The notes: generated by a model from the letters alone, not told the origin. A DNA stretch of 64,000 bases from Halobacteriovorax marinus SJ (GCF_000210915.2 NC_016620.1:1-64000); one strand, 5' to 3'; counted from the first letter of the stretch, positions 28,075-46,364 are shown. A program made the numbers and translations.

Positions 28075-28500
28075 ATGTCGTCATTCAATTTAGACGTCTA
28101 CATGCCTGTACTAATCCTCGTCGCATTTGCCGTCGTAATGGTGGTCGGAGCTTTAGTAGTAGGTATTCTAGTAAGACCTAACAACCCTAATGATCTTAAA
28201 TTATCCGCCTATGAATGTGGTGAAGAGCCTGTAGGTACTGCGTGGTCAAACTTTAATATTCGCTTTTATGTTATCGCACTTATCTTCATTATATTCGATG
28301 TAGAAGGCGCTTTAATGTTTCCTGTAGCTGTTGTCTTTAAGAAATTTAATGAGATCGGTGAAGGTACGGTGGTCTTTGCAAGTTTACTTCTCTTTATTTC
28401 AATTCTAATTGAGGGAGTTGTTTACTGCTGGAAGAAGGGTGACCTTGATTGGGTTAGAAGTTATCAGGTTCCTGAAACAAAAAAGGAAGAGGTTAACTAA
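28075..28500 (+). CDS. nuoA: NADH-quinone oxidoreductase subunit A
   Basis: Complex I membrane subunit near the quinone site, 141 residues. Three helices and the conserved loop YECGEEPVGTAW (46-57). The acidic pair sits in FDVEGAL (74-80). Ribosome site GGAG at 28065-28068. It is the first gene of a membrane-arm-only nuo cluster. The 223 bases upstream separate it from divergent mfd and hold no gene or clear promoter that I can see. Confidence 0.96.
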   Translation: MSSFNLDVYMPVLILVAFAVVMVVGALVVGILVRPNNPNDLKLSAYECGEEPVGTAWSNFNIRFYVIALIFIIFDVEGALMFPVAVVFKKFNEIGEGTVVFASLLLFISILIEGVVYCWKKGDLDWVRSYQVPETKKEEVN

Positions 28501-29664: not shown

Positions 29665-29684
29665 AATTATAAAGAGGATTTAGC

Positions 29685-30209
29685 ATGTTTATTAATATCA
29701 TGTTCATACTATCTGCCTTACTAACCCTCGCTGGTGCGTATGGTGTTGTCGCAAGTAGAAATATTATGCACGCCTGTGTATATCTTCTCGCAAGTCTTTT
29801 TGGAATTGCAGGATTATATGCAACTCTAGGAGCAGACTTTTTAGCAGCAACTCAGATGGTTGTTTACGCTGGTGGTGTTGTTATCTTAATGCTTTTTGCG
29901 ATCATGCTTACAGGTGGTCATAAAGAAGCAATGAATAGATTTGGAATTAATAAAATTCCATCTATGGGTACAGTTAGAACATTTGTCATTGGAACATTGT
30001 CGGCACTAGTATTAGGTTCTGTAGCTTTTAAAATTATTGCAGGAATGACAAAGCACGTTCCTGGTGAACTTCCTGAGTTTACAACAACAGTTGAAAAACT
30101 AGGAGTTCTTCTTTTAACAGATCATATTTTAGCATTTGAAATTTCATCTGTACTTCTACTAGGAGCTCTAGTTGGTGCGGCGGTAATTTCTAGACCAAGG
30201 AAACAATAA
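29685..30209 (+). CDS. nuoJ: NADH-quinone oxidoreductase subunit J
   Basis: Membrane subunit with five helices, 174 residues. The conserved third helix TQMVVYAGGVVILMLFAIM contains the pi-bulge region involved in coupling. GAAVISRPR ends the last helix. AGAGGA upstream. Its stop overlaps the nuoK ATG (TAATGG). Confidence 0.95.
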   Translation: MFINIMFILSALLTLAGAYGVVASRNIMHACVYLLASLFGIAGLYATLGADFLAATQMVVYAGGVVILMLFAIMLTGGHKEAMNRFGINKIPSMGTVRTFVIGTLSALVLGSVAFKIIAGMTKHVPGELPEFTTTVEKLGVLLLTDHILAFEISSVLLLGALVGAAVISRPRKQ

Positions 30210-30514
30210 TGGTATCACTTCCATCATTCTTAGTTGTTTCATTAATTCTTTTTCTTGCAGGTATAACTGTAATGATCGCAAGAAAGAATGTGATAGCAAT
30301 TTTATTAGGTATTGAATTGATTCTAAATGCAGCGGCATTGAACTTCGCAGCATATACAAGATTTATTAATAACAATCTTGATGGTCATATAATGTCATTA
30401 TTTATCATTATTATTGCAGCCGCTGAAGCAGCTGTTGGCTTGGCCATTGTTATAAGATTTTACCAAATTAGAGAAAGTATCCACATTGATGATGCTACTC
30501 AATTACAAAGCTAG
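30209..30514 (+). CDS. nuoK: NADH-quinone oxidoreductase subunit K
   Basis: Antiporter-like MrpC-type subunit, 101 residues with three helices. Both conserved membrane glutamates are present: E36 in LLGIELILNA and E73 in AAAEAAVGLA. The start is fixed by the one-base overlap with nuoJ. This canonical copy is the reference for the degenerate copy at 37459. Confidence 0.96.
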   Translation: MVSLPSFLVVSLILFLAGITVMIARKNVIAILLGIELILNAAALNFAAYTRFINNNLDGHIMSLFIIIIAAAEAAVGLAIVIRFYQIRESIHIDDATQLQS

Positions 30515-30531
30515 TTAGGAAGGTTGATTAA

Positions 30532-32712
30532 ATGGATTACACTATCTCAACTATTGCACCAATTGTTTTATTTCCGTTCTTCGCGTTCGCTATTAATTCG
30601 TTCTTAGCTCGCAAGGCAACTAAAGTAGCAGTTTTTATTAGTTGTGCTGCTATTGCACTATCATCTATTTGGGCAATTAGAATTTTTAAAGACTTCATTT
30701 TTGGAAACTATAATACTGACTATTATGTACATAAAGTATTTACTTGGTTTGATCTAAATGGTGCGGGACTAGAGTTTAATGTTGATATGGGGATCTATAT
30801 CGACAATATGACAGCAATAATGCTTTTAATGGTAACTGTTGTAGCAACTCTAATTCACATCTTCTCAACTTACTATATGAAAGATGACATGAACTACGGT
30901 CGTAACGGTAGATTCTTTGTTTACATGTCACTCTTTACATCAGCAATGCTTGGTCTTGTTCTTTCAGATAACCTTTTCTCAGTATTTATCTTCTGGGAAT
31001 TAATGGGATTCTGTTCATATAGTTTAATTGGACATTACTATGAAAAAGAAAAGGCTGGAGACGCAAACGTTAAAGCCTTTATGACAACTAGAGTTGGAGA
31101 TGTTTTCTTCCTTCTAGGTATTTTAGCTGTATGGACAAATATTGGTTCTGTAAGCTTTGTAGATATTTATGCAGCAATTGCTGATGGATCATTTGCAACT
31201 CATGCGGCCCTGGGGATTCCACTAGCAACATTTGCTGGTCTAGCGATTTTCATGGGAACGATTGGAAAATCAGCTCAATTTCCACTTCAGGTGTGGCTAC
31301 CAGATGCGATGAATGGACCAACTCCTTGTTCGGCGCTAATTCACGCAGCGACAATGGTTGCAGGTGGAGTTTACTTATCGCTTAGAATCTATCCAATCTT
31401 AGAGTTAGGTGGATTAACAACAATGGTTGCATATATTGGTGGTATTACAGCTTTCGGAGCTGCGACAATCGCACTTGTGCAAACAGACTTTAAAGCGGTA
31501 CTTGCCTACTCTACAATTTCTCAACTAGGTTACATGGTTTTAGGTGTTGGTGTAGGTTCATATAATGCAGCATTTATGCACTTAATAACTCACGCAATTT
31601 TTAAAGCGTGTCTATTCCTAAGTGCTGGATCTGTAATTCATTCTTTACATGATCACCATACACATGAGCACGTTCAAGAAATGCCAAGAATGGGTGGATT
31701 AAGACATAAAATGAAATTCACTTGGTTTGCTATGTGGTGTTGTACACTAGCAATTGCTGGTATTCCGTTCTTCTCTGGTTTTGTATCTAAAGATAGAATC
31801 CTAGGTGATGCTCTGATTATGGCAATTGATAATAAAGCAATGATCATTCCTGCTCTATTAGGTTTTGGTGGTGCACTTCTAACAGCATTTTATATGTGTA
31901 GAATGATGTTCTTAGCTTTCCACGGAGAACCTAGAGATAAAGATCTCTACGATCATACACATGAAGAGAAATTCTCATGGAATAGAAACCTACCACTACT
32001 TATCTTAGCTGTTTTTACACTAGGTGTTTGGTTCTCAGGTTCATTAACAGGTCAAAAATTAATTAAAGTAGCATCTCCTGAGGGAAAACTTGAGTGGTTC
32101 TCAACATTAGTTGCTAAGCCAGAAGTTTCAAAGTTTGCTGACTATAAAAGAGAAGCATTTGGCGGAGTTGATACTAGAGAAAAAGTAGCTCCAGTTCACT
32201 CTCACTACGATCCAGATCACGGATTAACAGAAGAGAGAGCTCATCATGTACATCACGTACATCATATTGGAGCTGTGGTTTCAATCATAATTGCTTTTAG
32301 TGGTGTATTCATTGCTTTCATGATGTATATCAAGAAGTCATGGAACCCAGGTTGGTGGGTATCAACATTTTCAGGTTGGTATAGAGCACTACAAAATAAA
32401 TACTATATGGATGACCTATATATTAAGGGTGTTATTCAAAAAGGTTTATTGCCGTTGAATAATTTCCTTGCCTGGTTAGATATGGGAGTTTATGACCGTT
32501 TCATTGTTGATGGTTGGGCAGCTGTGAATAGAGCGTTATTCACGTTCTCAAAATGGTTCGACAACCTTTGGGTTGATACGGTTATGGTAGATGGAACAGG
32601 AGCGAGTGTTAGATTGTTCAATGTTATCTTGAGAACATTACAATCTGGAAAGATTCAATTCTATTTCATTATGATTATTGTTGTTTTAGCTGGTTACATA
32701 TTAGCGTTATAA
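30532..32712 (+). CDS. nuoL: NADH-quinone oxidoreductase subunit L
   Basis: Distal antiporter-like proton-pumping subunit, 726 residues. Channel residues are conserved: Glu in FIFWELMGFCSY, Lys in GKSAQFPLQVWLPDAM, His in ALIHAATMV, and Lys in IPFFSGFVSKDRIL. The C-terminal part provides the lateral helix and last membrane helix. An unusual His-rich stretch (DNA about 32193-32270) precedes the C-terminal section. AGGAAGG upstream of the ATG. Confidence 0.97.
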   Translation: MDYTISTIAPIVLFPFFAFAINSFLARKATKVAVFISCAAIALSSIWAIRIFKDFIFGNYNTDYYVHKVFTWFDLNGAGLEFNVDMGIYIDNMTAIMLLMVTVVATLIHIFSTYYMKDDMNYGRNGRFFVYMSLFTSAMLGLVLSDNLFSVFIFWELMGFCSYSLIGHYYEKEKAGDANVKAFMTTRVGDVFFLLGILAVWTNIGSVSFVDIYAAIADGSFATHAALGIPLATFAGLAIFMGTIGKSAQFPLQVWLPDAMNGPTPCSALIHAATMVAGGVYLSLRIYPILELGGLTTMVAYIGGITAFGAATIALVQTDFKAVLAYSTISQLGYMVLGVGVGSYNAAFMHLITHAIFKACLFLSAGSVIHSLHDHHTHEHVQEMPRMGGLRHKMKFTWFAMWCCTLAIAGIPFFSGFVSKDRILGDALIMAIDNKAMIIPALLGFGGALLTAFYMCRMMFLAFHGEPRDKDLYDHTHEEKFSWNRNLPLLILAVFTLGVWFSGSLTGQKLIKVASPEGKLEWFSTLVAKPEVSKFADYKREAFGGVDTREKVAPVHSHYDPDHGLTEERAHHVHHVHHIGAVVSIIIAFSGVFIAFMMYIKKSWNPGWWVSTFSGWYRALQNKYYMDDLYIKGVIQKGLLPLNNFLAWLDMGVYDRFIVDGWAAVNRALFTFSKWFDNLWVDTVMVDGTGASVRLFNVILRTLQSGKIQFYFIMIIVVLAGYILAL

Positions 32713-32743
32713 AAATTATTTTCTATATAAAGAGGAGTTGGCG

Positions 32744-34285
32744 GTGAGTGGAACGTCGAATTTATTAAACTGGATTCTTTGGATGCCGATGATTGGGGCA
32801 CTAGGGGTACTTCTTATTCCTAAGGCGAAAGAAAGTGCAATTAGATACTGGGCACTTTTAAACACAGCGATCACTGTTCTTCTAACAGTGAAGCTTTGGA
32901 TGGGATTTGATAATGCCGTTGCAGGTATGCAAGAGGCGTTTACTGTAAAAATTCCTTGGATTAAGCAATTCAATATCTTCTACCATTTAGGTGTTGATGG
33001 AATTTCTATGCCAATGATTTTACTGACATCAGTAATTCTATTCATTTGTATTCTAAGTTCTTGGACTGTTAAGAAGCAGATTAAAGGTTACTTTGCTTTA
33101 ATTCTTTTCTTACAGAGTACGGTTTTTGGTGTGTTCTTCGCGCTAGACTTCTTCCTATTCTATGTTTACTGGGAAGTAATGCTTATTCCAATGTTCTTCC
33201 TAATCGGTATTTGGGGTGGAGAGAACAGAGAATACGCAGCTGTTAAGTTCTTCCTTTATACATTCTTTGGTTCAATCCTAATGCTTGTTGGTATGGTTGC
33301 TCTTTATCACGCAACTGGAAAAGGAGTAGATTCATTTGATCTATTGGCCTTAAAAGCAAGTGCAGATGAATTCATTAAGATGAAAGTAAGTCTTTTTGGA
33401 ACAGAAGTAGCATTTGATAAATTATTCTTTATGTTTATGTTCATTGGTTTCGCAATTAAGGTACCAGTATTTCCATTCCACACTTGGTTACCACATGCGC
33501 ACGTTCAGGCACCAACAGCAATTTCAGTAATTCTTGCTGGTGTACTACTAAAGATGGGGACTTATGGTTTCTTAAGAATTGCATTCCCTATTTTCCCAGG
33601 TGCTGCAGTCTACTTTGCAGACTTCATTGCAATACTAGGTTTAATTAATATTATTTACGGTGCGTTCTGTGCCATGGCCCAGACAGACGTTAAGAAACTA
33701 ATTGCTTATTCTTCTGTTTCACACATGGGATTTGTTATGATCGGTATGGCCGCGATGACTTCACAAGGTCTGAACGGAGCCGTTCTTCAAATGTTTAACC
33801 ACGGTACTTCAGCAGCAATGATGTTCCTTCTGATTGGTATTCTTTATGAAAGATCTCACCACAGATGGATTATTAGACCTGATGGAACAAAAGGTTTTGG
33901 TGGTCTTTATACACAACTACCAGTTTTCTCAATTGTATTTATCATCGGTATGTTTGCAGCAATGGGATTACCTGGACTATCAGGATTTATCTCAGAAGCA
34001 TTAATCTTCTTTGGTATTTATAAGAAATTTACAACTATGACAGTTCTAGCTCTTTTAGGTCTTCTAATTGGTGCAGCCTACTTACTATGGATGTTCAAGA
34101 GAATGTTCTTTGGTGATGTTGTTGAAGAATGTAAGTCATATACAGATATGAATGCTAGAGAAATATTCTATATGTTACCTCTATGTGTTGCAGTTATTCT
34201 ATTCGGGATTTGGCCTTCACCAATCCTAAATATTATGAAAGCTTCAGTTAACTCACTGGTAACTTTATTGGCGAATTATCAGTAA
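32744..34285 (+). CDS. nuoM: NADH-quinone oxidoreductase subunit M
   Basis: Second antiporter-like pumping subunit, 513 residues from GTG at 32744. I prefer this start over TTG at 32738 because the ribosome site AGGAG (32733-32737) would touch the TTG. Conserved channel residues: Glu in YVYWEVMLIPMF, Lys in AIKVPVFPFHTWLP, the His-containing SHMGF, and GLSGFISEAL. Canonical and complete. Confidence 0.96.
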   Translation: MSGTSNLLNWILWMPMIGALGVLLIPKAKESAIRYWALLNTAITVLLTVKLWMGFDNAVAGMQEAFTVKIPWIKQFNIFYHLGVDGISMPMILLTSVILFICILSSWTVKKQIKGYFALILFLQSTVFGVFFALDFFLFYVYWEVMLIPMFFLIGIWGGENREYAAVKFFLYTFFGSILMLVGMVALYHATGKGVDSFDLLALKASADEFIKMKVSLFGTEVAFDKLFFMFMFIGFAIKVPVFPFHTWLPHAHVQAPTAISVILAGVLLKMGTYGFLRIAFPIFPGAAVYFADFIAILGLINIIYGAFCAMAQTDVKKLIAYSSVSHMGFVMIGMAAMTSQGLNGAVLQMFNHGTSAAMMFLLIGILYERSHHRWIIRPDGTKGFGGLYTQLPVFSIVFIIGMFAAMGLPGLSGFISEALIFFGIYKKFTTMTVLALLGLLIGAAYLLWMFKRMFFGDVVEECKSYTDMNAREIFYMLPLCVAVILFGIWPSPILNIMKASVNSLVTLLANYQ

Positions 34286-34298
34286 AAAGGTGTAAGAA

Positions 34299-35774
34299 AT
34301 GCTTTTAAATTATTTAGCAAGTATAGGTCGATTTACTCCAGAGATTATCTTAGTTGTTACTATGATTGGTCTTCTGTTTGTTGAATCGACTTATGGAGAT
34401 AACGACAAGGGAAGTAAGAAAGGTTTTCTTTATGCAACTGCATATGCCGGATTACTTCTTGCGCTTGTGAAGCTAGTGGCTTCTCTCGGTGATGCTCCAG
34501 GTGGTATTTTTACAAATGCACTGACAATTGACCCATTCAGTACATTGGCAAAAATTATTATGGTCTTAGGTACAGCTGGATCAATATATTTAAGTAGAAG
34601 ATCTGAAGATATTTATGGAAACCTCAAAGGTGAATTCGCAATTATTTCAGTAGGTGTATTAATTGGAGGTATGTTATTGGCCTCAGCTAATAATATGCTT
34701 ATGCTATACATTGGAATTGAGACACTTTCGATTCTTTCATACGTCTTAGCTTCACTTAAGAAGAATGATGATAGATCATCAGAAGCTGGACTAAAGTACT
34801 CTCTATATGGGGGTATCTCAGCAGGTATAATGCTTTTTGGTTTAAGTCACATCTTTGGAGTTCTAGGAACAATTCAATTCACAGGTGTAATAGCAAAACT
34901 ACAAACATTAGACACAATGCAAGTCGCAATCTTGATGCCATCATTTCTAATGTTCTTTGCTGGTATTGGTTATAAGATTGCTTGTGTTCCATTCCATATG
35001 TGGGCACCAGATGTATACGAAGGTTCACCTCTTCCTGTAACAACATTCTTCTCAATTGTTCCAAAGATTGCAGGTATTGCCGTACTAGTTAGAGTGACAA
35101 TGACATTCTTTGGTGGAGAAACGTCAGCGCTACAAATGACTTGGGTTGGAACTTTAAGCGTTATTGCTGCATTAACAATGACAGTTGGTAACGTCTCTGC
35201 AATAGGGCAAAGATCAGTTAAAAGAATGCTCGCGTACTCTTCAATCAGTCACGCTGGTATGATGATGATGGGTGTTGTTTGTCTTTCTGAATTAGGTGTA
35301 ACAGGTGTTCTATTCTACGGTATCACATACCTATTTATGACACTCGTAGCATTCTTCATTACGTCATTTGTTCAAGATGAGTATGGTAATGATCACTTTG
35401 AAAGATTTAATGGGCTTATATTTAAGCATCCATTAATGGCCATATTCATGATTATCACAATGTTCTCATTAGCTGGTATTCCACCATTTAGTGGATTTGT
35501 TGCTAAGTTTAATATCTTCAATGCTTTAATTGATAAGAACTTCTATGTTTTAGCAATTATTGCAGGTATGAACTCAGTTGTAGCGCTTTACTACTACATG
35601 AAGATCGTAAGATTAATGGTATTTAAGCCAAATGAAAGTGAAGAGAAGATAGCAGGGTTTGGTTTTTCAAATCAACTAATCATTGCAGTATTCACAGTTC
35701 CAGTTGTACTACTTGGTGTATTCTGGGAAAACATCGTAATGGTTGCTAATGGAGCTAAGATCTTCATCCAATAA
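34299..35774 (+). CDS. nuoN: NADH-quinone oxidoreductase subunit N
   Basis: Third antiporter-like subunit, 491 residues. Motifs: YIGIETLSILSYVL, YKIACVPFHMWAPDVYEG, YSSISHAGMMMMG and AGIPPFSGFVAKFNIF with its channel Lys. Its stop overlaps the next ATG (TAATGG at 35772-35777), and no terminator follows. The degenerate cassette downstream is therefore probably on the same message. Confidence 0.96.
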   Translation: MLLNYLASIGRFTPEIILVVTMIGLLFVESTYGDNDKGSKKGFLYATAYAGLLLALVKLVASLGDAPGGIFTNALTIDPFSTLAKIIMVLGTAGSIYLSRRSEDIYGNLKGEFAIISVGVLIGGMLLASANNMLMLYIGIETLSILSYVLASLKKNDDRSSEAGLKYSLYGGISAGIMLFGLSHIFGVLGTIQFTGVIAKLQTLDTMQVAILMPSFLMFFAGIGYKIACVPFHMWAPDVYEGSPLPVTTFFSIVPKIAGIAVLVRVTMTFFGGETSALQMTWVGTLSVIAALTMTVGNVSAIGQRSVKRMLAYSSISHAGMMMMGVVCLSELGVTGVLFYGITYLFMTLVAFFITSFVQDEYGNDHFERFNGLIFKHPLMAIFMIITMFSLAGIPPFSGFVAKFNIFNALIDKNFYVLAIIAGMNSVVALYYYMKIVRLMVFKPNESEEKIAGFGFSNQLIIAVFTVPVVLLGVFWENIVMVANGAKIFIQ

Positions 35775-36097
35775 TGGAAGGTCTTAACTTCTCTATATTT
35801 ATAATTATCTCTAGTGGCCTAAGCATATTATTACTTGCTTGGGCCTTTTTCGTTAAATCAAGAACAAAGAACTTTAATACAGATATCTCAAAGCAATTTG
35901 TGACTAGTTCTGTCTTAAACTTTAGAACTACTTTGAAGCTATGCCTCAGCATTACAACGGTTTTTCTATTGTCTCTTATTCTTAAAAATTCATCTCTAGA
36001 AAAGCTAATAAGTCGTGAAAACCTTTTATTATTAGTACCTTTTATTCTATCATTGATACTAGTATTAAAAACAGATAAGCAGTCACGGAAGAATTAA
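35774..36097 (+). CDS. Degenerate NuoA-like membrane protein (shadow cassette gene 1)
   Basis: 107 residues with three predicted helices (about 6-27, 53-70 and 83-99), the same topology as NuoA. Without gaps, VTSSVLNF (43-50) aligns with VGTAWSNF (53-60) of NuoA at 28075, and FLLSLIL (64-70) aligns with FDVEGAL (74-80). The YECGEEP loop is not conserved, and the acidic pair Asp75/Glu77 becomes Leu65/Ser67. The start overlaps the nuoN stop by one base. It is NuoA-derived by inference from fold, position and these matches. It is unlikely to work as a normal NuoA. Confidence 0.65.
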   Translation: MEGLNFSIFIIISSGLSILLLAWAFFVKSRTKNFNTDISKQFVTSSVLNFRTTLKLCLSITTVFLLSLILKNSSLEKLISRENLLLLVPFILSLILVLKTDKQSRKN

Positions 36098-36098
36098 T

Positions 36099-36995
36099 TT
36101 GATCGAAATCAGTAATGGGTTAATACCTGTTATATCTACAATTACTATTATCGCTTTTTTTATGTTGCTCATAGGAGCGATAGATAAGTACATGCGTCAG
36201 GAATCAATATCTTCCTATAAAGAATCCCTGAGAAACTTTAGAGTTGTGAGAATATTTAAAATAAACTTCTTAAATACATCTCTATTTTCTCTGATTTTAT
36301 CTCTCATTAGATTCAATATAATTTTTTATTTAGTGATTAAAACTGTTGGCAATATGTTATTTGGAAGTGATGTATTTTTATTCAATTTAAATTACGTCAT
36401 TTCATACATTATTGTTTGTGAGTTTCTCTTCTTCTTGAAAACAAAAAAGAAGAATGAAATTAACGAACTTTCTTCGCTTACAGGTGTAATTGTATTTGTA
36501 TTGGCAACAATTTGCTTACAAAAATTAAGTACAAACTTAATTATTGAAAGAAAGGTTTTTTGGCTAGGAAGTAATAACTATTTTGCAGACTGGACGGCTC
36601 TGGAGTTTCCAGTAATTGTTATTCCAATGTTTTACATATTAGCAAGTCTCTATACGAGGGTCGTAAAATCTTCAGTGGCCCTAAGATATAACTCAGTAGA
36701 TAGGCTATTTGATTTTTTAAGTAATAACTTACTATATATTTACATGACATGCTTTTTCTTAAGAGCGTTATTTGGTGGTGTTACAGATATTAAGGTGACT
36801 AGTCTAAGTGAATATATTTATTTAAATAGCATTGTATCTGTTTTTTTGAAGTTCTCACTTATAACTTTGATGACTCGCTTATTAATTAGATTTCTCCCGT
36901 CAATAGTAGATTTAAGAAGAAAAAGTCTTACAGCACTGATAATACTTTTGATAATTAATATTACAATAGTACAGTTTATAAGAGGGGGGTTATGA
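36099..36995 (+). CDS. Degenerate NuoH-like membrane protein (shadow cassette gene 2)
   Basis: 298 residues with about eight hydrophobic segments, against 387 in NuoH at 28501. The best match is near the end: VFLKFSLITLMTRLLIRFLP resembles the NuoH segment FFTKTFALYYVVIWVRWTLP, with shared Phe, Lys, Arg, Leu and Pro. LLYIYMTCFFLRALFGG also resembles YVEVFVVCGVAAALYLGG. The quinone-chamber signatures (AERK, RQGPNRVG, ETNRAPFDLPE) are absent. The start is TTG at 36099, one base after the previous stop. The end overlaps the next gene by four bases (ATGA). Confidence 0.6.
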   Translation: MIEISNGLIPVISTITIIAFFMLLIGAIDKYMRQESISSYKESLRNFRVVRIFKINFLNTSLFSLILSLIRFNIIFYLVIKTVGNMLFGSDVFLFNLNYVISYIIVCEFLFFLKTKKKNEINELSSLTGVIVFVLATICLQKLSTNLIIERKVFWLGSNNYFADWTALEFPVIVIPMFYILASLYTRVVKSSVALRYNSVDRLFDFLSNNLLYIYMTCFFLRALFGGVTDIKVTSLSEYIYLNSIVSVFLKFSLITLMTRLLIRFLPSIVDLRRKSLTALIILLIINITIVQFIRGGL

Positions 36996-37459
36996 CAACA
37001 CTTCTTATCGTTGTAGTTTATTTTATTGTTAATATAGCAATGGTGATTTCTAATAAATCAAATTTTAAAGTACTCTTTAGTTTTTCAACAAGTTTAATCA
37101 TCTTTATATTTCTAAATAACCTTAACTATGAATATGCTGATATTTATTTAACATTTGTTACTTTGATGAATTTCATTGCCCTTAGCTATGTGAAGTTTTC
37201 TCAGACAGGCCTTGTCAGAGTACTACCTTCAAATAGGAATAAGAGTATAAATAATATGATTCCTATTGTGAGTGTATTAGTAGCATCAGTTATGGTTATC
37301 ATTCTCTTAAATAATGTAAGTGATGAAATACTAGAGAAGAATATCTTGTTAATTGGTGAGATGACACAGAATTACTTTAGTGATTTTAATCTAGTATTTA
37401 TGAGTGCATCGGCAACGCTTGTCTCAATAATCTATTTAATAAGAAGAGTGAGGGAATAG
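36992..37459 (+). CDS. Degenerate NuoJ-like membrane protein (shadow cassette gene 3)
   Basis: 155 residues with about five hydrophobic segments, like NuoJ (174). The C-terminal part matches best: LEKNILLI...NLVFMSASATLVSIIYLIRR lines up with VEKLGVLL...EISSVLLLGALVGAAVISRP of NuoJ. The conserved third-helix YAGGVVILMLF is not visible. The start overlaps the previous stop (ATGA), and the stop overlaps the next GTG (TAGTG). Confidence 0.58.
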   Translation: MTTLLIVVVYFIVNIAMVISNKSNFKVLFSFSTSLIIFIFLNNLNYEYADIYLTFVTLMNFIALSYVKFSQTGLVRVLPSNRNKSINNMIPIVSVLVASVMVIILLNNVSDEILEKNILLIGEMTQNYFSDFNLVFMSASATLVSIIYLIRRVRE

Positions 37460-37740
37460 TGACTTATATACTACTTATCTCACTTATATTTATCACAGGA
37501 GTCGTTGCCATCTTTATGATGTTTGCGAGGCAAAGTGCAATTGATTACTTTGTAAGCTTAACACATTTCTTCACATTATTTGTGCTGGTATCTCATTACT
37601 TAGAGCTTACGCAAAGAGTTTCTTTTAATGGCTCTTTAGTGATTGTTTTTGGCTTAATATTTGTTGTTTCAATATTCACATCCGTGGTTATACGTTTTAA
37701 ACATTATAAGAAAACGGGTAATAGTAATATAGAAGGTTAA
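37459..37740 (+). CDS. Degenerate NuoK-like membrane protein (shadow cassette gene 4)
   Basis: 93 residues with three helices, the clearest member of the cassette. FARQSAID (22-29) matches IARKNVIA of NuoK, and FTSVVIRF (73-80) matches GLAIVIRF. Both membrane glutamates that NuoK needs are gone: E36 aligns with Thr35 and E73 with Val69. The start is GTG at 37459 inside the previous stop. The next gene begins directly after its stop. The origin from NuoK is well supported; the present role is unknown. Confidence 0.7.
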   Translation: MTYILLISLIFITGVVAIFMMFARQSAIDYFVSLTHFFTLFVLVSHYLELTQRVSFNGSLVIVFGLIFVVSIFTSVVIRFKHYKKTGNSNIEG

Positions 37741-39258
37741 ATGTTAGAGACGTTAATAATTTCATCTACATTATTAGTTGTATTAAGTGAAAGAGTGAAG
37801 TTTAACTTCTTTGTTCCGGCCGTGAGATTGATACAAATTCTTGTGACTTCTTATTGTCTTTATAGTGGTAAGCTAGGTTTCTTGGGTGAAATTCTAAAGC
37901 TTTCTGTACCAACACTCATGTTTTACATTTTGCCGATGATGCTTATAAGCATCAGCTTGGAAATGAGTAAATTTAGATCAATTGTTAAAGAAGTTCTCTT
38001 CTTACTATTTACACTTGTTGTGGCCTCGACCTCTATTTCTACAATTCTAGCTTCTTACTTTGTAATCTCGCTCGTTTTAATTAGTGAGAGAAAGTCATTT
38101 TTGATTGATTATATTGCGCTTCTCTTTCTTTCAATCATCTCAATGATATACTTTTCGGAAATAGCAACAACGGTTCCAACAACAAAAGATGTCTATTATA
38201 TATTTTCTAATCCTATATTGGACAAAGTATTTTATCCTCTGCTTATGCTCTTTGTGTGTTTCGAAGTTTCTAGACTTTGGGGGTACAAGAGAGAGTTATT
38301 AGTCTTTACAGGATTGATGCCATTTATACTTTTATTTAGACTTCAGAATGCTAACTACTTAGACGAATCTATAACTTATTTTTCTATTGTATTACTTGTC
38401 TTTATCTTCTGGAAATTAAGAAAAATAATTAAAGATACAAGTATTGATTATACAGTTAACTTTCTCTTAGAAATTTCACTCTTCTTTAGTATATTTTATT
38501 TTCAAATACAAATGTATGACTGGGGAGTTAGTACTGCATTAGTAACTTTTTGCATTTATATAATTTATAAAATGGTGAAACATTACCTTAATCATGATGA
38601 AGAAATTAAAAAGATCGTTATAGTATTTGCACTTTTTAACCTATCCTGTATTCCGATCAGTTCGGTGGGATTGAAGGCTATTGATGTATTAAGCAGGTCT
38701 GAGGATGTTTTAAGTTACTTCATTCTCATAGTTGGTATATGCCTTTCAATTTTTGCTTTGGGTAACGTGGCAAAAAGGTTCTTTGATGAATTGCATTTTA
38801 ATATCTTAGAAGCATCAGCAAGAGTAAAGACCATCACCTTTTCTTTAGTCGTAATTTCATTATTACTTGTGCCGATTGATTTAACTTATTACTTTGCAGG
38901 TACAAGCTCTAGTCATTCTGCTTTATTTAATAAGATGATAGGACAAGTGGATTCAACCTTTTTAAGCTTTAATCTAAATTTCCTCTTGATCCTATTTGCA
39001 ACTTGCTGCTTTGGTTATTTGATGAAGATTATGCCATTGAGTACTCTTTGGAGACTTAGCTTTAAGGTTGATGAACTCATCAATGCACTATCTGTAAATA
39101 TTGCATTGAAAACGAATAAGAGACCAAGCCTTCAAAGAGTAGATAACAAAGTAGAAGAAGTTCAAAGTGAAGGGATTCTTAAGACTTCTAGTTATACAAT
39201 AGCATTTTATATTTTAGTGTTTTTCTTAATAATTAGTTTAATAATTATAGAGTTGTAA
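37741..39258 (+). CDS. Degenerate NuoL-like membrane protein (shadow cassette gene 5)
   Basis: 505 residues with a dozen or more hydrophobic segments, against 726 in NuoL. LSCIPISSVGLKAIDVLS sits where NuoL has IAGIPFFSGFVSKDRILG, and KRFFDELHFN where NuoL has CRMMFLAFHG. IDYTVNFLLEISLFFSIF corresponds to the segment with FKAVLAYSTISQLGYMVL. The channel Glu, Lys and His of NuoL are not recognisable. An amphipathic polar stretch and a final helix at the C-terminus recall the NuoL lateral helix and anchor. It starts directly after the previous stop. Confidence 0.6.
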   Translation: MLETLIISSTLLVVLSERVKFNFFVPAVRLIQILVTSYCLYSGKLGFLGEILKLSVPTLMFYILPMMLISISLEMSKFRSIVKEVLFLLFTLVVASTSISTILASYFVISLVLISERKSFLIDYIALLFLSIISMIYFSEIATTVPTTKDVYYIFSNPILDKVFYPLLMLFVCFEVSRLWGYKRELLVFTGLMPFILLFRLQNANYLDESITYFSIVLLVFIFWKLRKIIKDTSIDYTVNFLLEISLFFSIFYFQIQMYDWGVSTALVTFCIYIIYKMVKHYLNHDEEIKKIVIVFALFNLSCIPISSVGLKAIDVLSRSEDVLSYFILIVGICLSIFALGNVAKRFFDELHFNILEASARVKTITFSLVVISLLLVPIDLTYYFAGTSSSHSALFNKMIGQVDSTFLSFNLNFLLILFATCCFGYLMKIMPLSTLWRLSFKVDELINALSVNIALKTNKRPSLQRVDNKVEEVQSEGILKTSSYTIAFYILVFFLIISLIIIEL

Positions 39259-40065
39259 ATGATAATAATTTTCTTAATCTTTACATTGATTTCGATTTTC
39301 TTGAAGGTAAAAGGCTCTAAGTCATTTGTTGATTCAGTACCATTTCTTATAGTAACTCTACTCTCTTGGATTTCTTTCTTTACAAATTTATACCTAGATA
39401 GCTCTATGCAACTCATTTATGCATATGAAGTAATTTCTATTTTAATAGTAATGTTATTTGGATCAAATATTGCTAATTTTTTGAAGCTCAAAATGCTTGG
39501 GATATTCATTCTAACTTTAGGAGCATCTTTTCAGTTTACCTTTCAATATGAATTTCTATATTTATATGTCATTCTCTCAATATTTATAGCATTCAATACA
39601 AAACTTAATAATGACAAGGCACTTAGCTTTCCCTATTTAATGTTTAACTTAATGGCCTTAATGAAAGCAAGAGAGCTTATTGAAACACCATTTTCAATAG
39701 GTGTTTTCTCAGTCGTTGCAACTTTAGTAATTTTATATTTGGTGTTGAAGAAGTTTCAAAGTTTGACGGTATTACATAAGTCAATTAGTTATCCCGTTTG
39801 GCTAGGACTCTTTACTTTTTCATTTCCGGTTAGTTATCTTCTGATTATCTTGTCTCTTATCCTCTTATTAGAAATACTACAGTGTTTCGAGATTAAGTTT
39901 CTTAATAGATATAGAGAAAAAATATTGGCCGCAACATTTTTTATCATATTAATTCCTTTCAGTTTGAGTAATCTCTTCTTGGCGATAATGATAATGTCTA
40001 TGCTTGTTATAAGTTTATATTTAAATAGATCGACGTCTGCAAATGAGGAGGGACTTTCATGTTAA
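39259..40065 (+). CDS. Degenerate NuoM-position membrane protein (shadow cassette gene 6)
   Basis: 268 residues, almost entirely hydrophobic helices, about half the length of NuoM. Sequence likeness is weak: HKSISYPVWLGLF may correspond to YSSVSHMGFVMIG. The identification rests mainly on its place between the NuoL-like and NuoN-like genes. It starts directly after the previous stop and overlaps the next gene by seven bases. No lysine or glutamate channel motifs are seen. Confidence 0.5.
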   Translation: MIIIFLIFTLISIFLKVKGSKSFVDSVPFLIVTLLSWISFFTNLYLDSSMQLIYAYEVISILIVMLFGSNIANFLKLKMLGIFILTLGASFQFTFQYEFLYLYVILSIFIAFNTKLNNDKALSFPYLMFNLMALMKARELIETPFSIGVFSVVATLVILYLVLKKFQSLTVLHKSISYPVWLGLFTFSFPVSYLLIILSLILLLEILQCFEIKFLNRYREKILAATFFIILIPFSLSNLFLAIMIMSMLVISLYLNRSTSANEEGLSC

Positions 40066-41063
40066 AGATCCTCAGCAGTTATGATTGGGTATTAACAGTA
40101 CAATTGTTATTTATAATTACAACTTCTATAACAGTCCTATTTTTCAAAAGATTGAAGAAGTATGATGACTACTTAGTCTCACTTCCCTTTTCTTTGGTCT
40201 TAGCAGTTTCTCTATTTAATTCAGAAAACTTAATATCGTTTATTTTCTATTCAGAAGTATTATTTAACCTATCAAAGATAATTTATAAAAATCGTTACTT
40301 ACTTTATAGTAATCGATTCTTTGAGAATATTAGGTATCTACTTTGGGCGATGCTCACATTTACTTACTTTGTCTCTTTTAATACTTTCAACTTCAGTACT
40401 GTCCCAAAGAATGTTGGTGTTGAGTTTACGTTTGTGACAGTGTTATTTGTCTTGTTAATCTTCTTAATGGGATTGAGCGCACTCATAAGAAATTCTGATT
40501 ATAAAGACTCACTAGTTGAGTCGATTGGTTACGGAACACTAGGTGTCGCTGTTTTTAGTCTTAAAATACTACATGTTATATCAGATATAGCTGATGCAAC
40601 TCCACCAAGACATCACGAAGTGATTGATTATCTAGTGCTATCATTAATCTTCTTAGCGTCAATGCTTTCATGGAAGTTTGTTAGAAGTGAGTGCTTGATT
40701 AAGCTTAGTTCAGTAATAAAGACACAGGTTATAATTTCTCTTTTTGCTGTAGTGATTATTGCTGGAAATAATACTTCATTGAATTTTCAGATTTATTCAT
40801 TATTTATTGTGGGTCTTATGATTAGCTTAGACCTCGTTTTAAGATTGTTACCGACTGGACGTATGAAAGTTATTCTATCATTTACGTCAATCGTATTACT
40901 CCTAGGCTTAGGGCCTAAGGGACATATTTTCAATGTGTTTAGATCAATTATTGATAGCAATAGTCAGATACTATTTATCATTTCAATTGCGATATCAACT
41001 GTTGTCGTCAGCTTTATAGCGGGTAGAGTTTTTGATTTGAGTCTTCAGAGAAAGGAAGCATAA
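40059..41063 (+). CDS. Degenerate NuoN-like membrane protein (shadow cassette gene 7)
   Basis: 334 residues with about ten hydrophobic segments. LGLGPKGHIFNVFRSIIDSN lines up with AGIPP...KFNIFNALIDKN of NuoN, sharing Phe-Asn, Phe and Ile-Asp. The channel Lys before FNIF becomes Ile. KLSSVIKTQVIISLFAV resembles AYSSISHAGMMMMGVV. The ATG at 40059 overlaps the previous stop by seven bases. It closes the seven-gene cassette. A 100-base gap to the next gene contains a possible -10 (TATAAT, 41127-41132). Confidence 0.62.
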   Translation: MLKILSSYDWVLTVQLLFIITTSITVLFFKRLKKYDDYLVSLPFSLVLAVSLFNSENLISFIFYSEVLFNLSKIIYKNRYLLYSNRFFENIRYLLWAMLTFTYFVSFNTFNFSTVPKNVGVEFTFVTVLFVLLIFLMGLSALIRNSDYKDSLVESIGYGTLGVAVFSLKILHVISDIADATPPRHHEVIDYLVLSLIFLASMLSWKFVRSECLIKLSSVIKTQVIISLFAVVIIAGNNTSLNFQIYSLFIVGLMISLDLVLRLLPTGRMKVILSFTSIVLLLGLGPKGHIFNVFRSIIDSNSQILFIISIAISTVVVSFIAGRVFDLSLQRKEA

Positions 41064-41163
41064 ATTACCGAAATGATAGGAAATTCTTTCCTTGAGTCCG
41101 TTTAAACATCACCTGTTATTCTGCGCTATAATTAGAGAGGTATATCTTTAATTACAGGCGAGA

Positions 41164-44100
41164 ATGAGCAAGAAGTATAGAGTGAAATTAATCAATGACC
41201 GAATTGTTGGCCCGTTCGTGGCTGAACAAATTGGTGAGCTATACGTAAAGGGTCATTTACTTGGAGATGAAAAGTGCCAAGTATTTCCTGTTGGAGATTG
41301 GTTAACCTTAAAAGACTTTGATGAGCTAAAAGAAATAATCGTTAAGGCAACAAAAGAAGGTAAGATCAAGGCCAAAGACAGCGGTGAGCGAACGCAAACT
41401 TTTGCTAGGATTAATAAACCAAAAACAAAGAAGCAAGCTGTAAAGAAAGACAAGGGCTTCCAAGAGTTTCAATATAAGAAAGAAGATATAAGCAGGGTTG
41501 ATTATGAGGCCTTGGAAGAGAAATTTAAAGAAGAAGCTAAAGAGCTTGAATCAATCGAAGAAGAACTTGGTCATGTAAATGAGGTTCCCGTTGAAGAACC
41601 TGAAGAAAATGATGGAGTTGAAAAAACGGTAATTATAAACAGAAGTTCTCTTAGCAATGATAATGTCGACAAGACAGTAATTGTAAATCCAAATCCATTT
41701 AGAGAAAAAGTTGAAGAGAAGATCGAAGATGAGCCTGAGGAAGATACAAACTCAGAGGAAGAGGAAGAAGTAGAAGAAGAACCAAAAGAAGAGGTTCTTA
41801 ATACTCAGGAAGCAACTGAGTTTATAAATGTTAAAGAACTTTTACCTGATATCAAACAAGTTGCAAACGTTGCAGAAAAAGAGTTTGAAGAAAAAGTTAT
41901 AGAGGAAGAAGCTGAAGAAGCTAAGCTAACTCCAGAAAAGAAAGTTAAAGAGGAAGAGGCCGAAGAGAAAGAGAAAAAGAAGTCTAAAAGAAAGAAAACT
42001 ACACCAATAGTTGCTGTTGCATTTATTGTTATTCTATGGACTTTACTCTTCCCTGAAAAAGAAGAAAAGAAACTCGACCCAGTAAGAGTAAGTATTCAAT
42101 TCCCGATTCAAGCGGAGTTCTTAGATAGTGTAAAGAGTACTGAGGCCCTTAATAGGGGTTTAGATCACTACTCCCAGGGAACTTACCTATCTAAAATTAA
42201 GGCATCTCTTGAATTTAGTAAGTCTCTACACCATCAATTTAAAAATAATAAGGCGCTTGGATACTTAATACTTACCTATTCTGAAATATTTGAAAATTCA
42301 AATGATGAAAAGAAATCGATTCGAACAATATTTAAGCTCATAGAAATTGCAAGAAGTAAGATGCTTTCAGATGCAAATGTTGCAGCAGGGAGTGCCCTCT
42401 TTTATCAAAAGATAGGAAAAGCTCAGAGTGCAAATAGAATACTTGAAAACTTTATTAGAATTAATAAGCCAACAGTAAATCTTCTTTCTATTTATTTAAA
42501 TGTATTAATTGAAGTCGGAAATTATATTGAGGCTAGAAAAGTATTTGATATGCTCTCTGGTCTTAAGAATAAAAATGAAGCAACTTATCTAAGTATATTA
42601 AATTTTTACGAAGAAAATGATCTACAAGATAAAGTTAAAGAGACAATTGCTGAAGCTAGAAACTCATTTCCTAAATCAATTCCTCTCTTACTTAGGTATG
42701 CAAAGTACCAATTTGATATAGGTGATTACAAGAAGTACGAAGCGGTATTAAAAGTAATACAGTCTTTGAATTCTGGAAGATCTCCAATGTATTACGCAAA
42801 ATTTCTTGAATATATGGGGATTTTGGCAGCAATTAAAAAAGATAATAATAAAGCCGTTCTCCTTTTTAGATTGGCCTTAAAAATTCATGAATCTGATGAA
42901 CTTAGATCAAAGCTTTCTCTGCTTGAGCTTGGGGGCTCTTCGAATGTTGAGAAGATTATTCTTGAGAGTAAGATTGTAGAGCTCATGAAGAAGGCCAAGA
43001 ATGCAGTAAAAGAAAGAAAGTGGGAAATAGCCTTTATTAATGCAATTAAAGCTTCTGATTTAGATAGCTCTTATATTCCCGCTCAGCTTCTGCTTGGAAA
43101 TATTCAAGTTAAGAGAGGATACTATGAAGATGCTATAAAGACATTCAATAGAATGAAGAAGGAATACCCTCTTAATAAGAAGATTAATATCTACTTAGTA
43201 GAAGCCTATATTAAAGCCTTTAAACTCTCTAAAGCAGAGGTGGAACTTAGAACTCTTGCTCAATCTAAGTTAAGTGATAGTTACATCTTTTACTCACTCC
43301 AGGCAAAGTACTACTTAAGAAGAGAGTTCTATGAGAATGCTATTTCTAAGTTCAAAGAAAGTATTAAGAGAAACCCTGTTAATGATGATGATTACTTTGA
43401 ATTGGCAAAAATATATTTAAAGTTTAGAAAGTTTAAATCTGCAAAGAATATGTTAACGAGGTCGATTTCACTTGATCCTGTTAATATTGAATACCATTCT
43501 GCTTATGCCAACATATTATATGAGCTAGAGGGTGCTGAGACAGCAATTGGTTACCTTAGAAATTTATTGAAGCAAAATAGAGATAACCCAAAAATTCTTG
43601 GTGATATAGCTATCTACTATTATAAGAATGGACAAAATATTGAATTCCAAGAATATAAGAAGAGAGTTGAGAAGTTAGCTAGTACTGATGCAAGCTTCTA
43701 TGAGTTCTTAATTTACTCCGCTGAGCTTGATGACAGAGATGATGATGTAATTAAATATGGAAAAGAGCTAATTAAGATAAATCCTGGTGATTTAGATGTT
43801 CAAATTAAGCTTGGGAAGAATCTCTACGATAAAGGTCTTTATAAAGAAGCTCTCAATATGTTTGAGTCGATTTTGGCCCGATTAGAATCTTTTCCTAGAG
43901 CGAATTACTATCTTGCTAAGACCTATATTAAACTTAGAGATCTTAAGAAGGCCCATATTATGGCCGAGCGAGAAGTGAAGAATAATCCTTCGCTAGAGTT
44001 TGGTTACTTTATTCTTGGGGAAGTTTTTAGACTAGAGAAGAAGTACAGAGAAGCAGAGTTAAACTTTAAGAGATCTATTTCTAAGAACGGTCGCTACGTA

Positions 44101-44346
44101 GAAGCTCTCATGGGAATGGGTTGGATAAAGTGGAAGCAAGGTTATCTAGATAGAGCGAGAGAGTATTACTTAAAGGCCCTGAAGGAAAATCAAAATAATG
44201 GAGAAATCCATAGAGCACTTGGTTACATCTATAAAGAGATTGGTCAGAGTTCTTTGGCAATTGACTCATTTAGAGTTTATTTAGATTTGACCCCTGCTGC
44301 AAAAGATAGGGCCCAAATTCAAGGTCTAATGAAGAGCCTGAGATAG
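41164..44346 (+). CDS. Large bitopic GYF2-like / TPR protein
   Basis: 1060 residues. The N-terminal 60 residues resemble a GYF_2 (DUF4339-type) domain, with IVGPFVAEQIGELYVKGHL and VGDWLTL. A Lys/Glu-rich low-complexity region of about 200 residues follows. It holds two similar motifs, EKTVIINR (about 153-160) and DKTVIVNP (about 172-179). One membrane helix is at about 282-297, after a basic patch, so the N-terminus is probably cytoplasmic. The remaining 750 residues are TPR-like repeats outside. AGGCGAG precedes the ATG. It is perhaps a scaffold linking cytoplasm and periplasm; the function is unknown. Confidence 0.7.
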   Translation: MSKKYRVKLINDRIVGPFVAEQIGELYVKGHLLGDEKCQVFPVGDWLTLKDFDELKEIIVKATKEGKIKAKDSGERTQTFARINKPKTKKQAVKKDKGFQEFQYKKEDISRVDYEALEEKFKEEAKELESIEEELGHVNEVPVEEPEENDGVEKTVIINRSSLSNDNVDKTVIVNPNPFREKVEEKIEDEPEEDTNSEEEEEVEEEPKEEVLNTQEATEFINVKELLPDIKQVANVAEKEFEEKVIEEEAEEAKLTPEKKVKEEEAEEKEKKKSKRKKTTPIVAVAFIVILWTLLFPEKEEKKLDPVRVSIQFPIQAEFLDSVKSTEALNRGLDHYSQGTYLSKIKASLEFSKSLHHQFKNNKALGYLILTYSEIFENSNDEKKSIRTIFKLIEIARSKMLSDANVAAGSALFYQKIGKAQSANRILENFIRINKPTVNLLSIYLNVLIEVGNYIEARKVFDMLSGLKNKNEATYLSILNFYEENDLQDKVKETIAEARNSFPKSIPLLLRYAKYQFDIGDYKKYEAVLKVIQSLNSGRSPMYYAKFLEYMGILAAIKKDNNKAVLLFRLALKIHESDELRSKLSLLELGGSSNVEKIILESKIVELMKKAKNAVKERKWEIAFINAIKASDLDSSYIPAQLLLGNIQVKRGYYEDAIKTFNRMKKEYPLNKKINIYLVEAYIKAFKLSKAEVELRTLAQSKLSDSYIFYSLQAKYYLRREFYENAISKFKESIKRNPVNDDDYFELAKIYLKFRKFKSAKNMLTRSISLDPVNIEYHSAYANILYELEGAETAIGYLRNLLKQNRDNPKILGDIAIYYYKNGQNIEFQEYKKRVEKLASTDASFYEFLIYSAELDDRDDDVIKYGKELIKINPGDLDVQIKLGKNLYDKGLYKEALNMFESILARLESFPRANYYLAKTYIKLRDLKKAHIMAEREVKNNPSLEFGYFILGEVFRLEKKYREAELNFKRSISKNGRYVEALMGMGWIKWKQGYLDRAREYYLKALKENQNNGEIHRALGYIYKEIGQSSLAIDSFRVYLDLTPAAKDRAQIQGLMKSLR

Positions 44347-44451: not shown

Positions 44452-44539
44452 GGTGGATTGGCTGAGTGGTCGAAAGCGGTGGTTTTGAAAACCATTGACC
44501 TTCACGGGTCCGCAGGTTCGAATCCTGTGTCCACCGCCA
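44452..44539 (+). tRNA. tRNA-Ser (anticodon TGA)
   Basis: Class II tRNA with a long variable arm. The acceptor GGTGGAT pairs with GTCCACC (44529-44535), then the discriminator G and an encoded CCA. The anticodon loop TTTGAAA has TGA at 44486-44488. The T-arm has the normal GTTCGAATC. It reads UCA and wobbling UCN codons. Confidence 0.96.
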
Positions 44540-44567
44540 TTTTTTGGGCTCTTTGAAATACAATTGC

Positions 44568-44658
44568 GGAGACATGCCCGAGTGGCCGAAGGGAGCACCT
44601 TGCTAAGGTGTCGAACCGTCTGACGGTTCCGAGAGTTCGAATCTCTCTGTCTCCGCCA
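44568..44658 (+). tRNA. tRNA-Ser (anticodon GCT)
   Basis: The acceptor GGAGACA pairs with TGTCTCC (44648-44654), followed by G and an encoded CCA. The anticodon loop TTGCTAA gives GCT, reading AGC/AGU. It has a long variable arm typical of serine tRNAs. It lies 28 bases after tRNA-Ser(TGA), probably cotranscribed. A decayed partial copy lies near 51.6 kb. Confidence 0.96.
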
Positions 44659-44736: not shown

Positions 44737-45051
44737 TTAGTTATTATTCTCAACCCATGCATAAGAACTCTCACCGTTACTTAGGTAAGCATCCTCTAGC
44801 ATATACTCAATAAGATCAACTTGCTCTTGCTCCGTAAGTTTTGGAGTACTCATTGAGTCTAGTCCTGTTTTACTGATAGTAATGACAATTAAAAGAGAGA
44901 GGACTAGGGCAACTTGTTTTATTCCTAAACGCTCTATTAAACTTACAGGCTTCTCATTAATTCTACGATGAATATTGTTAAGCTCGTTCAATGGTGCTTG
45001 TGGTGTACTGTTGTCTCTGTTAAGGAGTTCTTTAATTTTCTCATTGGTCAT
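44737..45051 (-). CDS. Single-pass membrane protein, probable anti-sigma factor
   Basis: 104 residues: a cytoplasmic N-terminal part of about 45 residues, one helix (QVALVLSLLIVITIS, about 46-60) and a short outer tail. It overlaps the end of the ECF sigma gene by 11 bases and is the last gene of that operon. This size, topology and coupling fit a CnrY/anti-sigma type partner. No zinc-binding ZAS motif is seen, so the role is inferred from context. Confidence 0.6.
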   Translation of the reverse strand: MTNEKIKELLNRDNSTPQAPLNELNNIHRRINEKPVSLIERLGIKQVALVLSLLIVITISKTGLDSMSTPKLTEQEQVDLIEYMLEDAYLSNGESSYAWVENNN

Positions 45052-45571
45052 GGTCGACTCCGTTCTCTTTTAAAAATTTAGTGAAGTCCTCTTTGGCATA
45101 GTGCACTCTAGATTTAACAGTTCCTTCGCTAATGCCTAGAAGTTTTGCAATTTCAGTATTTGTATATTCAAGTTTGTAATAAAGAATAAAAACTTCTCTA
45201 TGTTTTGCTTTGAGCTTTAATAATCCTTTAGTTATTAAATCTTTTAATGTGTTATCAGGATTTATAGAAGCTTCGATTTCATCACTACTTTGTTCTTTGT
45301 GTTTCTTGAGAGAGTCGTAAGTGGTATTCATAGCAATTCGGTAGAGCCATGTTTTATAAGAAGACTTATTGTTAAAGGTATCCAGCTTATTCCAGGCCTT
45401 GAGAAAGGTTTCCTGTACGATGTCATCTATGTTTTGATTTCTAACCATCCAGTAAATAGTTGTACGTATAAACTCTTGGTTCTCTAAATAGATCTGATTA
45501 AAGACCTCTCTCTTCTCTTCTTCGCAAGAAAATGAGAGAGGTGTGAATATGCTCTTTAGAGTTTTAATCAA
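45041..45571 (-). CDS. ECF-type RNA polymerase sigma factor
   Basis: 176 residues with both ECF regions. Region 2 has DDIVQETFLKAWNKLDTF and SYKTWLYRIAMN. Region 4 has REVFILYYKLEYTNTEIAKL and LGISEGTVKSRVHYAKE. It lies 18 bases after the Spy-like gene and is coupled to the anti-sigma-like gene. The operon has an upstream promoter of sigmaE type, so autoregulation is likely. Confidence 0.92.
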   Translation of the reverse strand: MIKTLKSIFTPLSFSCEEEKREVFNQIYLENQEFIRTTIYWMVRNQNIDDIVQETFLKAWNKLDTFNNKSSYKTWLYRIAMNTTYDSLKKHKEQSSDEIEASINPDNTLKDLITKGLLKLKAKHREVFILYYKLEYTNTEIAKLLGISEGTVKSRVHYAKEDFTKFLKENGVDHDQ

Positions 45572-45588
45572 AACAAGCTCCAGCCTAA

Positions 45589-46164
45589 TTAGTCTTTCTT
45601 ATGATGCTTTTTCTTTTTCTTAAACTTCTCACGTCTCTTGTCTTCAAGCTCAATGAACTTCTTTCTTTGCTCTTCATTCAAAATATTTTTCATCGCAATC
45701 ATCTTTGAAAATCTCATCTCTTCTAGTTTTGCTCTCGTTGAGCTCACTTCCTTATGCATCGACATCATTTTGTCGTCTGAGATATTTCCAATGAATCCCT
45801 TCTTAATATCTTCTCTTAAATTCTTTATCTTCTCTCTTAGGGCCTTGCGCTCTTCTCTTTTCACTTTTTCACTTTGCTTATGCTCTTTAAGCTTTGAAAA
45901 CTGCTCTTTAGATAAGTTAAGCTCTTTTAAAAATCCAAACCCCTTACCCTTTCTCTCGCCAAGGCAAATAAGTTTAGACTTGTCTCTACGACCTTCTTTA
46001 CAAGTTCCAGACTTCTCACCCTTTTTACCTTGAAAAGTACAACTATCCCCTGCTGACTTATCTTTGCAGGCCGTTTGCCTCTCTTCAATATTCATTGGTT
46101 TCTTGGCCAGAGCCGGCGTCGAGATTAGAAGTGCAGTAAGTGTTAGTCCTAAAATTGATTTCAT
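45589..46164 (-). CDS. Spy/CpxP/CnrX-like periplasmic protein
   Basis: 191 residues from the ATG at 46164, which is preceded by GGAG and opens with a signal peptide (MKSILGLTLTALLISTPALA). A longer frame reaches 46245, but the operon promoter lies inside it. The N-terminal mature part has four Cys. The C-terminal half is a charged all-helical Spy-like domain (ELNLSKEQFSKLKEH, ILNEEQRKKFIELE) with a Lys/His-rich tail. It is the first gene of a sigma/anti-sigma operon. It may sense metal or envelope stress like CnrX, or buffer misfolded protein like Spy. Confidence 0.78.
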   Translation of the reverse strand: MKSILGLTLTALLISTPALAKKPMNIEERQTACKDKSAGDSCTFQGKKGEKSGTCKEGRRDKSKLICLGERKGKGFGFLKELNLSKEQFSKLKEHKQSEKVKREERKALREKIKNLREDIKKGFIGNISDDKMMSMHKEVSSTRAKLEEMRFSKMIAMKNILNEEQRKKFIELEDKRREKFKKKKKHHKKD

Positions 46165-46205
46165 ATCTTGCTCCATAAGTTGATAGCTTTTCGATGCTAT
46201 AAACC

Positions 46206-46233
46206 TTAGACGATTGAAGAGGTCAAAAGGTTC
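46206..46233 (-). promoter_or_regulatory. SigmaE-type promoter of the stress operon
   Basis: On the minus strand, GAACCTT (46233-46227), 15 bases, then GTCTAA (46211-46206). This closely follows the ECF/sigmaE pattern GGAACTT-N15/16-GTCTAA. It lies about 40 bases before the ATG at 46164 of the operon that encodes the ECF sigma factor. Confidence 0.65.
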
Positions 46234-46364
46234 ATTTTTTTTCACGACTTAAGCTTTTGATATTATAAGTCTCATTAAAAATATTATAATATAAAAAGGT
46301 GTTATTTAGAGCTGAATTCTCTGAAAAGGACTCATAATAGTATGAATTTATTACTTTTGATTGC

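Follow-up and report, generated by a model that had tools for sequence, protein, structure and literature searches.

A seven-gene cassette downstream of nuoN

The window analyzed here is a stretch of 64,000 nucleotides from Halobacteriovorax marinus SJ (GCF_000210915.2 NC_016620.1:1-64000), and named relatives place it in or next to Halobacteriovorax (Halobacteriovoraceae/Bacteriovoracaceae). It carries the membrane operon of a complex I (nuoA-H-J-K-L-M-N, 28075-35774, plus strand), hereafter type 1, which keeps the canonical residues and served as our reference set, and directly after nuoN a cassette of seven membrane-protein genes on the same strand (35774-41063). Our analysis strongly supports that this cassette encodes the membrane arm of a second complex I, which we call type 2. 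The first gene in this conserved slot is A2 (35774-36097), which encodes a degenerate NuoA-like protein of 107 amino acids (aa) with about three transmembrane (TM) segments. It is followed by degenerate NuoH-like H2 (36099-36995, 298 aa), NuoJ-like J2 (36992-37459, 155 aa, about five TM segments in relatives), NuoK-like K2 (37459-37740, 93 aa), the NuoL-like antiporter subunit L2 (37741-39258, 505 aa), NuoM-like M2 (39259-40065, 268 aa, named from its slot position and hydrophobic topology), and NuoN-like N2 (40059-41063, 334 aa). A preliminary description of this DNA had reported seven intact, coupled open reading frames (ORFs) after nuoN, and we confirmed all seven at those exact coordinates and sizes, with tight junctions of -1, +1, -4, -1, 0, 0, and -7 bases in order. 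It had also seen no terminator between nuoN and the cassette; we found no convincing one, and the 9 terminator-like sites in the operon were close to the 7.7 expected by chance from shuffled sequence. The G+C content drops to about 29% in the cassette.

The slot was read in 49 genomes, from nuoN of type 1 (nuoN1), or from mfd where type 1 is gone, to the next large gene, which encodes a TPR protein. Relatives had been proposed as a place to look for the cassette, and its frames are intact there: the slot holds exactly seven ORFs in 40 genomes, five in one, and none in 8, and the relative ORF sizes follow one pattern across the seven-gene slots. The cassette is truncated in genome G007.

Identity and origin of type 2

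Given that a Pfam search of the seven window proteins returned no match to any Nuo family, we based their identity on relatives, synteny, and folds. PF00361 matched only NuoL1, NuoM1, and NuoN1 in the whole genome and left L2 undetected, and a search for related loci based on L2, which is too divergent, found no relatives. The order A-H-J-K-L-M-N claimed in the preliminary description is not provable by plain search of the window proteins but gained support through full-length relatives. The slot proteins of G017 match NuoA, H, J, K, L, M, and N at E values of 6e-15, 2e-70, 7e-17, 3e-14, 1e-93, 7e-108, and 4e-36, respectively, and full-length slot proteins matching in the same order occur in G034, G031, and L072, whose contigs break off within L2. 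When the full-length set (G017, G023, G031, and G034) was compared by profile with canonical Nuo subunits, the matches were diagonal, save for the expected cross-matches among L, M, and N, whereas the cassettes of the window genus left K2 alone weakly positive in the profile-profile check. For window K2 against NuoK, hhalign gave 23.9%, the best of its row, and K2 of a sister species (L038) matched K1 at 1.6e-6 without composition correction. Only some subunits are still recognizable in the intermediate cassettes of G036, L071, L085, and G024. M2 orthologs of full length in G017 and G023 match NuoM, and N2 orthologs match NuoN in G036 (2e-8) and G024 (3e-9); window N2 was named from its slot position, a weak profile diagonal, and these ortholog matches.

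Iterative hidden Markov models built from full-length copies recruited window A2 cleanly (decoys at E 0.09 or worse) and window J2 at the borderline (decoys at E 0.0012, near the threshold), and did not reach window H2, K2, L2, M2, or N2; the decoys included outgroup locus L062, which was never recruited. Predicted structures, also suggested beforehand, gave H2 the NuoH fold. The AlphaFold2 model of window H2, made from an alignment of degenerate sequences only, had a predicted template modeling score (pTM) of 0.67 and a predicted local distance difference test score (pLDDT) of 64. All 50 matches listed by VIA against PDB were NuoH/ND1 or homologs (formate hydrogenlyase, MBH, and MBS), the best with Z 16.9 over 262 residues at 4.0 Å; Foldseek placed the same family on top, yet with no E value below 0.1. 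L2 appeared antiporter-like but its model was weak (pTM 0.45, pLDDT 54); all 50 VIA matches listed for this low-confidence model were NuoL/M/N or Mrp subunits (best Z 11.8).

A NuoH tree, which contains long branches, places the full-length H2 proteins with the NuoH of separate 14-gene complex I operons from other genera, and NuoH1 with outgroup sequences of other phyla, which suggests that the type 1 and type 2 arms are old, separate isozymes. Outside the slot, the best matches of full-length H2 are those 14-gene operons, at about 50% identity compared to about 38% for NuoH1. Tandem duplication of the neighboring nuo1 operon is rejected on the basis of this tree, and the proposal that the cassette duplicates the adjacent operon was therefore not upheld. 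Complex IE of Rhodobacter sphaeroides is likewise a second isozyme of the 14-subunit complex I (NDH-1) (PMC4859585). Type 2, which is complete in sister genera, resembles it in its subunits, in the membrane order A-H-J-K-L-M-N, and in the presence of two phylogenetically distinct complexes per organism. However, both isozymes are active in R. sphaeroides, whereas in most genera type 2 lacks the NADH module, the quinone pair, and the pump residues but retains the remaining parts.

The preliminary description placed the cassette correctly but covered half of the system, having missed the matching degenerate Q-module (NuoB2-CD2-I2) at another site in the genome. A NuoD search of the window's genome found a second copy at contig positions 2272295-2273902, and this type 2 Q-module locus (L128), 2.24 Mb from the cassette, consists of a lipoprotein gene followed by nuoB2, a fused nuoCD2, and nuoI2. 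Pfam recognized B2 (PF01058, 2e-20), CD2 (PF00346, 1e-64, and PF00329, 7e-28), and I2 (Fer4). The corresponding locus of G017 and G034 reads lipoprotein-B2-CD2-E2-F2-G2-I2, so that type 2 is complete there, including NuoEFG; degenerate E2, F2, and G2 are retained in G008 and degenerate F2 and G2 in G030. PF01512 and PF01257 (NuoF and NuoE) had no match in the whole window genome, and the type 1 complex, whose nuoB-C-D-I genes lie at contig 2.56 Mb (L129:9030-11889), therefore also belongs to the class free of an NADH module. Type 1 of this genome is an 11-subunit-type complex found alongside Na+-NQR. An 11-subunit complex I-like enzyme without an NADH module is functional in strict anaerobes (PMC11238625). 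Type 2 is like that enzyme in combining a Q-module and a membrane arm without NuoE/F/G, and the neighboring type 1 resembles this class, but type 2 lacks recognizable quinone and proton residues and its antiporter subunits are shortened in the window genus.

The lipoprotein gene (L128:11975-13495, contig 2274474-2275994) encodes about 506 aa with the lipobox ISAC, and a Pfam search gave no match for its product. Genomes with both this gene and CD2 nearly always carry them side by side, and most genomes without CD2 lack the gene, so we regard the lipoprotein as a candidate partner of type 2, adjacency alone being no proof of function. CD2 and I2 are kept in G027, where the lipoprotein and B2 region is degenerate and a classic complex I operon is present. 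Such an operon directly adjoins lipoprotein-B2-CD2-I2 in G122 (L174:7000-19900), which carries type 1, the classic operon, and the degenerate Q-module in one genome. In several genomes, I2 is followed by a protein of some 360 aa for which one to three TM segments are predicted (L156:3123-4199, L157:4966-6072, L162:11329-12414, and L166:9913-10995).

On the other side of the cassette, the constant downstream neighbor is the TPR gene (41164-44346, plus strand), encoding about 1060 aa with a single TM segment and an N terminus that weakly resembles GYF_2. It always comes after nuoN or the cassette, also in cassette-free genomes, and a promoter-like site (41103-41132) lies just 5' of it. Upkeep of the cassette solely via polarity on the TPR gene is disfavored, given that nuoN1 is directly followed by the TPR gene in 8 genomes. 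Farther downstream are two tandem tRNA-Ser genes (tga and gct, 44452-44658) and, on the minus strand (44737-46245), genes for a likely sigma factor (176 aa), a small TM protein (104 aa), and a basic secreted protein of 218 aa in a row.

Lost residues and retained constraint

Full-length type 2 copies keep the FDVE motif of NuoA, the quinone loop of NuoH, both glutamates of NuoK, and the Lys/Glu residues of NuoL, NuoM, and NuoN; several of these are gone in the type 2 of G023. The loss of pumping residues claimed in the preliminary description was supported: reduced type 2 copies have lost nearly all alignable proton- and quinone-path residues, including Lys/Glu, and by direct reading window K2 is without both channel glutamates. 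The FDVE motif of the full copies was not found in window A2. CD2 has 63 columns conserved at 85% or more in the 28 degenerate genomes. Its quinone-site His/Tyr pair, aligned with His38 and Tyr87 of Thermus Nqo4, is kept complete in none of the 28, and the window genome has Lys and Phe in its place. Because modules and residues are missing, type 2 of the window genus is predicted to be catalytically dead as a complex I.

Of these 28 genomes, 16 have all four cluster-N2 cysteines of B2, 11 have lost some or all of them, and one (G015) has no B2. Since CD2 is conserved while the B2 cysteines vary, the CD2 fold appears to be the shared constraint, with a redox center that is dispensable in some lineages. 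The window genome keeps all 12 Fe-S cysteines (four in B2 and eight in I2), which leaves room for a redox role. Type 2 could thus be stripped yet redox active, the [4Fe-4S] clusters of NuoI2 and NuoB2 passing electrons from a soluble donor to a non-quinone acceptor without pumping. The same 12 cysteines are kept in the 5 window-genus genomes and in 11 further degenerate genomes, and complex I-like enzymes without an NADH module are known (PMC11238625). We nevertheless consider this alternative unlikely, given that CD2 is still conserved where the B2 ligands or B2 itself are lost, that no alternative acceptor site is evident, and that the quinone pair is gone.

Selection was assessed from the proportions of synonymous (pS) and nonsynonymous (pN) differences in congeneric pairs, with L073 versus L074 for the cassette. 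The pS/pN values were 0.86/0.10 for H2, 0.57/0.12 for A2, 0.83/0.18 for K2, 0.81/0.24 for J2, 0.76/0.28 for N2, 0.73/0.46 for L2, and 0.72/0.47 for M2, and in the Q-module 0.76/0.18 for CD2 and 0.70/0.14 for B2; pN was well below pS for I2 and the lipoprotein, too. Synonymous sites are saturated, and we therefore do not give the ratios as rates; with that reservation, the earlier suggestion of retention under selection is borne out for all seven cassette genes. The subunits that adjoin the Q-module, A2, H2, J2, and K2, are the most strongly constrained, and L2 and M2 are the least. Between the window and L063, degenerate L2 and M2 have the lowest identities of the arm (0.34 and 0.39), whereas type 1 L and M are among the highest of type 1 (0.95 and 0.96). 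Such inverted conservation of the distal subunits would be expected if the distal pump had been specifically lost.

Proposed replacement of catalysis, and retention of type 2

Na+-NQR (PF05896) was found in 18 of the 19 genomes whose cassette is degenerate or truncated and in none of the 3 with an intact one (hypergeometric 0.0026, with genomes treated as unrelated). In G026, the exception without it, a single contig carries a separate NuoH and NuoD that are type-2-like. Na+-NQR has been reported in Bacteriovorax marinus (PMC4014512), in the only paper that our search found on the NADH dehydrogenase of B. marinus. Although it belongs to an unrelated protein family, Na+-NQR is likely the functional replacement in NADH oxidation, given that it co-occurs with nearly all degenerate type 2. 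A species tree (FastTree on concatenated type 1 proteins) places the full-length taxa G031, G034, and G017 on separate branches among reduced ones; the full-length type 2 therefore looks ancestral, with repeated degeneration.

We consider it rather probable that the cassette encodes the membrane arm of a phylogenetically separate type 2 that is kept as a noncatalytic, structural complex I. Among the roles put forward in the preliminary description, retention as a membrane complex with a different task is the best reading, and that a dead type 2 would be kept in this way is our best inference, held with moderate confidence, from its retention and the selection on it. We propose that Na+-NQR took over NADH oxidation, which would have relaxed catalytic selection on type 2, and that type 2 may have been kept as a noncatalytic, L-shaped membrane assembly. 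Its anchor would be the interface of the Q-module and heel (CD2, B2, H2, A2, J2, and K2), with a hydrophobic distal arm that is presumably loosely constrained. Type 2 would probably act as a scaffold or as a partner for docking, perhaps of the lipoprotein with which it co-occurs.

Slow decay, in which type 2 became redundant after the arrival of Na+-NQR and its frames are intact under relaxed selection since loss is slow, would account for the strong Na+-NQR association, the full loss in 8 genomes and truncation in G007, and the graded degeneration of E2, F2, and G2 in G008 and of F2 and G2 in G030. We disfavor this explanation as quite improbable: seven intact genes persist in 40 genomes at saturating synonymous divergence, every gene tested has pN below pS, CD2 retains its 63 conserved columns, and many partial sets would be expected where one was seen. 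The most doubtful alternative, that type 2 is a structural partner of the adjacent type 1 complex I, such as an extension, or a partner in a supercomplex, produced from one shared operon, fits the tight coupling to nuoN1 without a clear terminator and the co-location in most genera, but type 1 occurs without the cassette in 8 genomes, and G025 and G102, in which neither NuoH nor NuoD of type 1 was matched (the NuoN search covered only G025), keep A2-N2 directly between mfd and the TPR gene and lipoprotein-B2-CD2-I2 elsewhere. Having lost type 1, these two genomes keep a degenerate type 2, which is therefore not merely a type 1 extension; we reject such an extension, another role proposed earlier, as a general explanation.

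Several points weigh against a structural type 2. Some nodes of the species tree have low support, L072 is poorly placed, and the Na+-NQR comparison has only three intact genomes. Position and topology are still the basis for assigning window M2 and N2, confidence in the L2 model is low, and the recruitment of J2 was borderline. The constraint on L2 and M2 may reflect hydrophobic helices alone, and the window genus retains all of its Fe-S cysteines. The cassette is cleanly lost in some lineages and truncated in one, and in G027, which keeps CD2, no cassette follows nuoN1; the need for the membrane arm is therefore not universal. The lipoprotein is a candidate partner, and the assembly of type 2 is predicted.

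More broadly, we tentatively suggest, as a scheme that falls somewhat short of probable, that a whole complex I of at least 10 proteins from two loci was converted to a pseudoenzyme complex on several branches, after another NADH dehydrogenase was in place, and that it now has a nonrespiratory task in a family with predatory bacteria among its members. As a rule, pseudoenzymes are single proteins. Our literature search, with most subscription papers outside its reach, found no report of such a complex. Type 2 is a giant multisubunit respiratory machine that is apparently without NADH oxidation, quinone chemistry, and pumping, yet it is retained as a set across many genera. Its recognition indicates that gene order and membrane topology can expose complex I relatives that are invisible to Pfam. 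The graded intermediates form a natural series of which parts of complex I serve structure and which serve chemistry, and this series allows testing of what a dead complex I can serve for.

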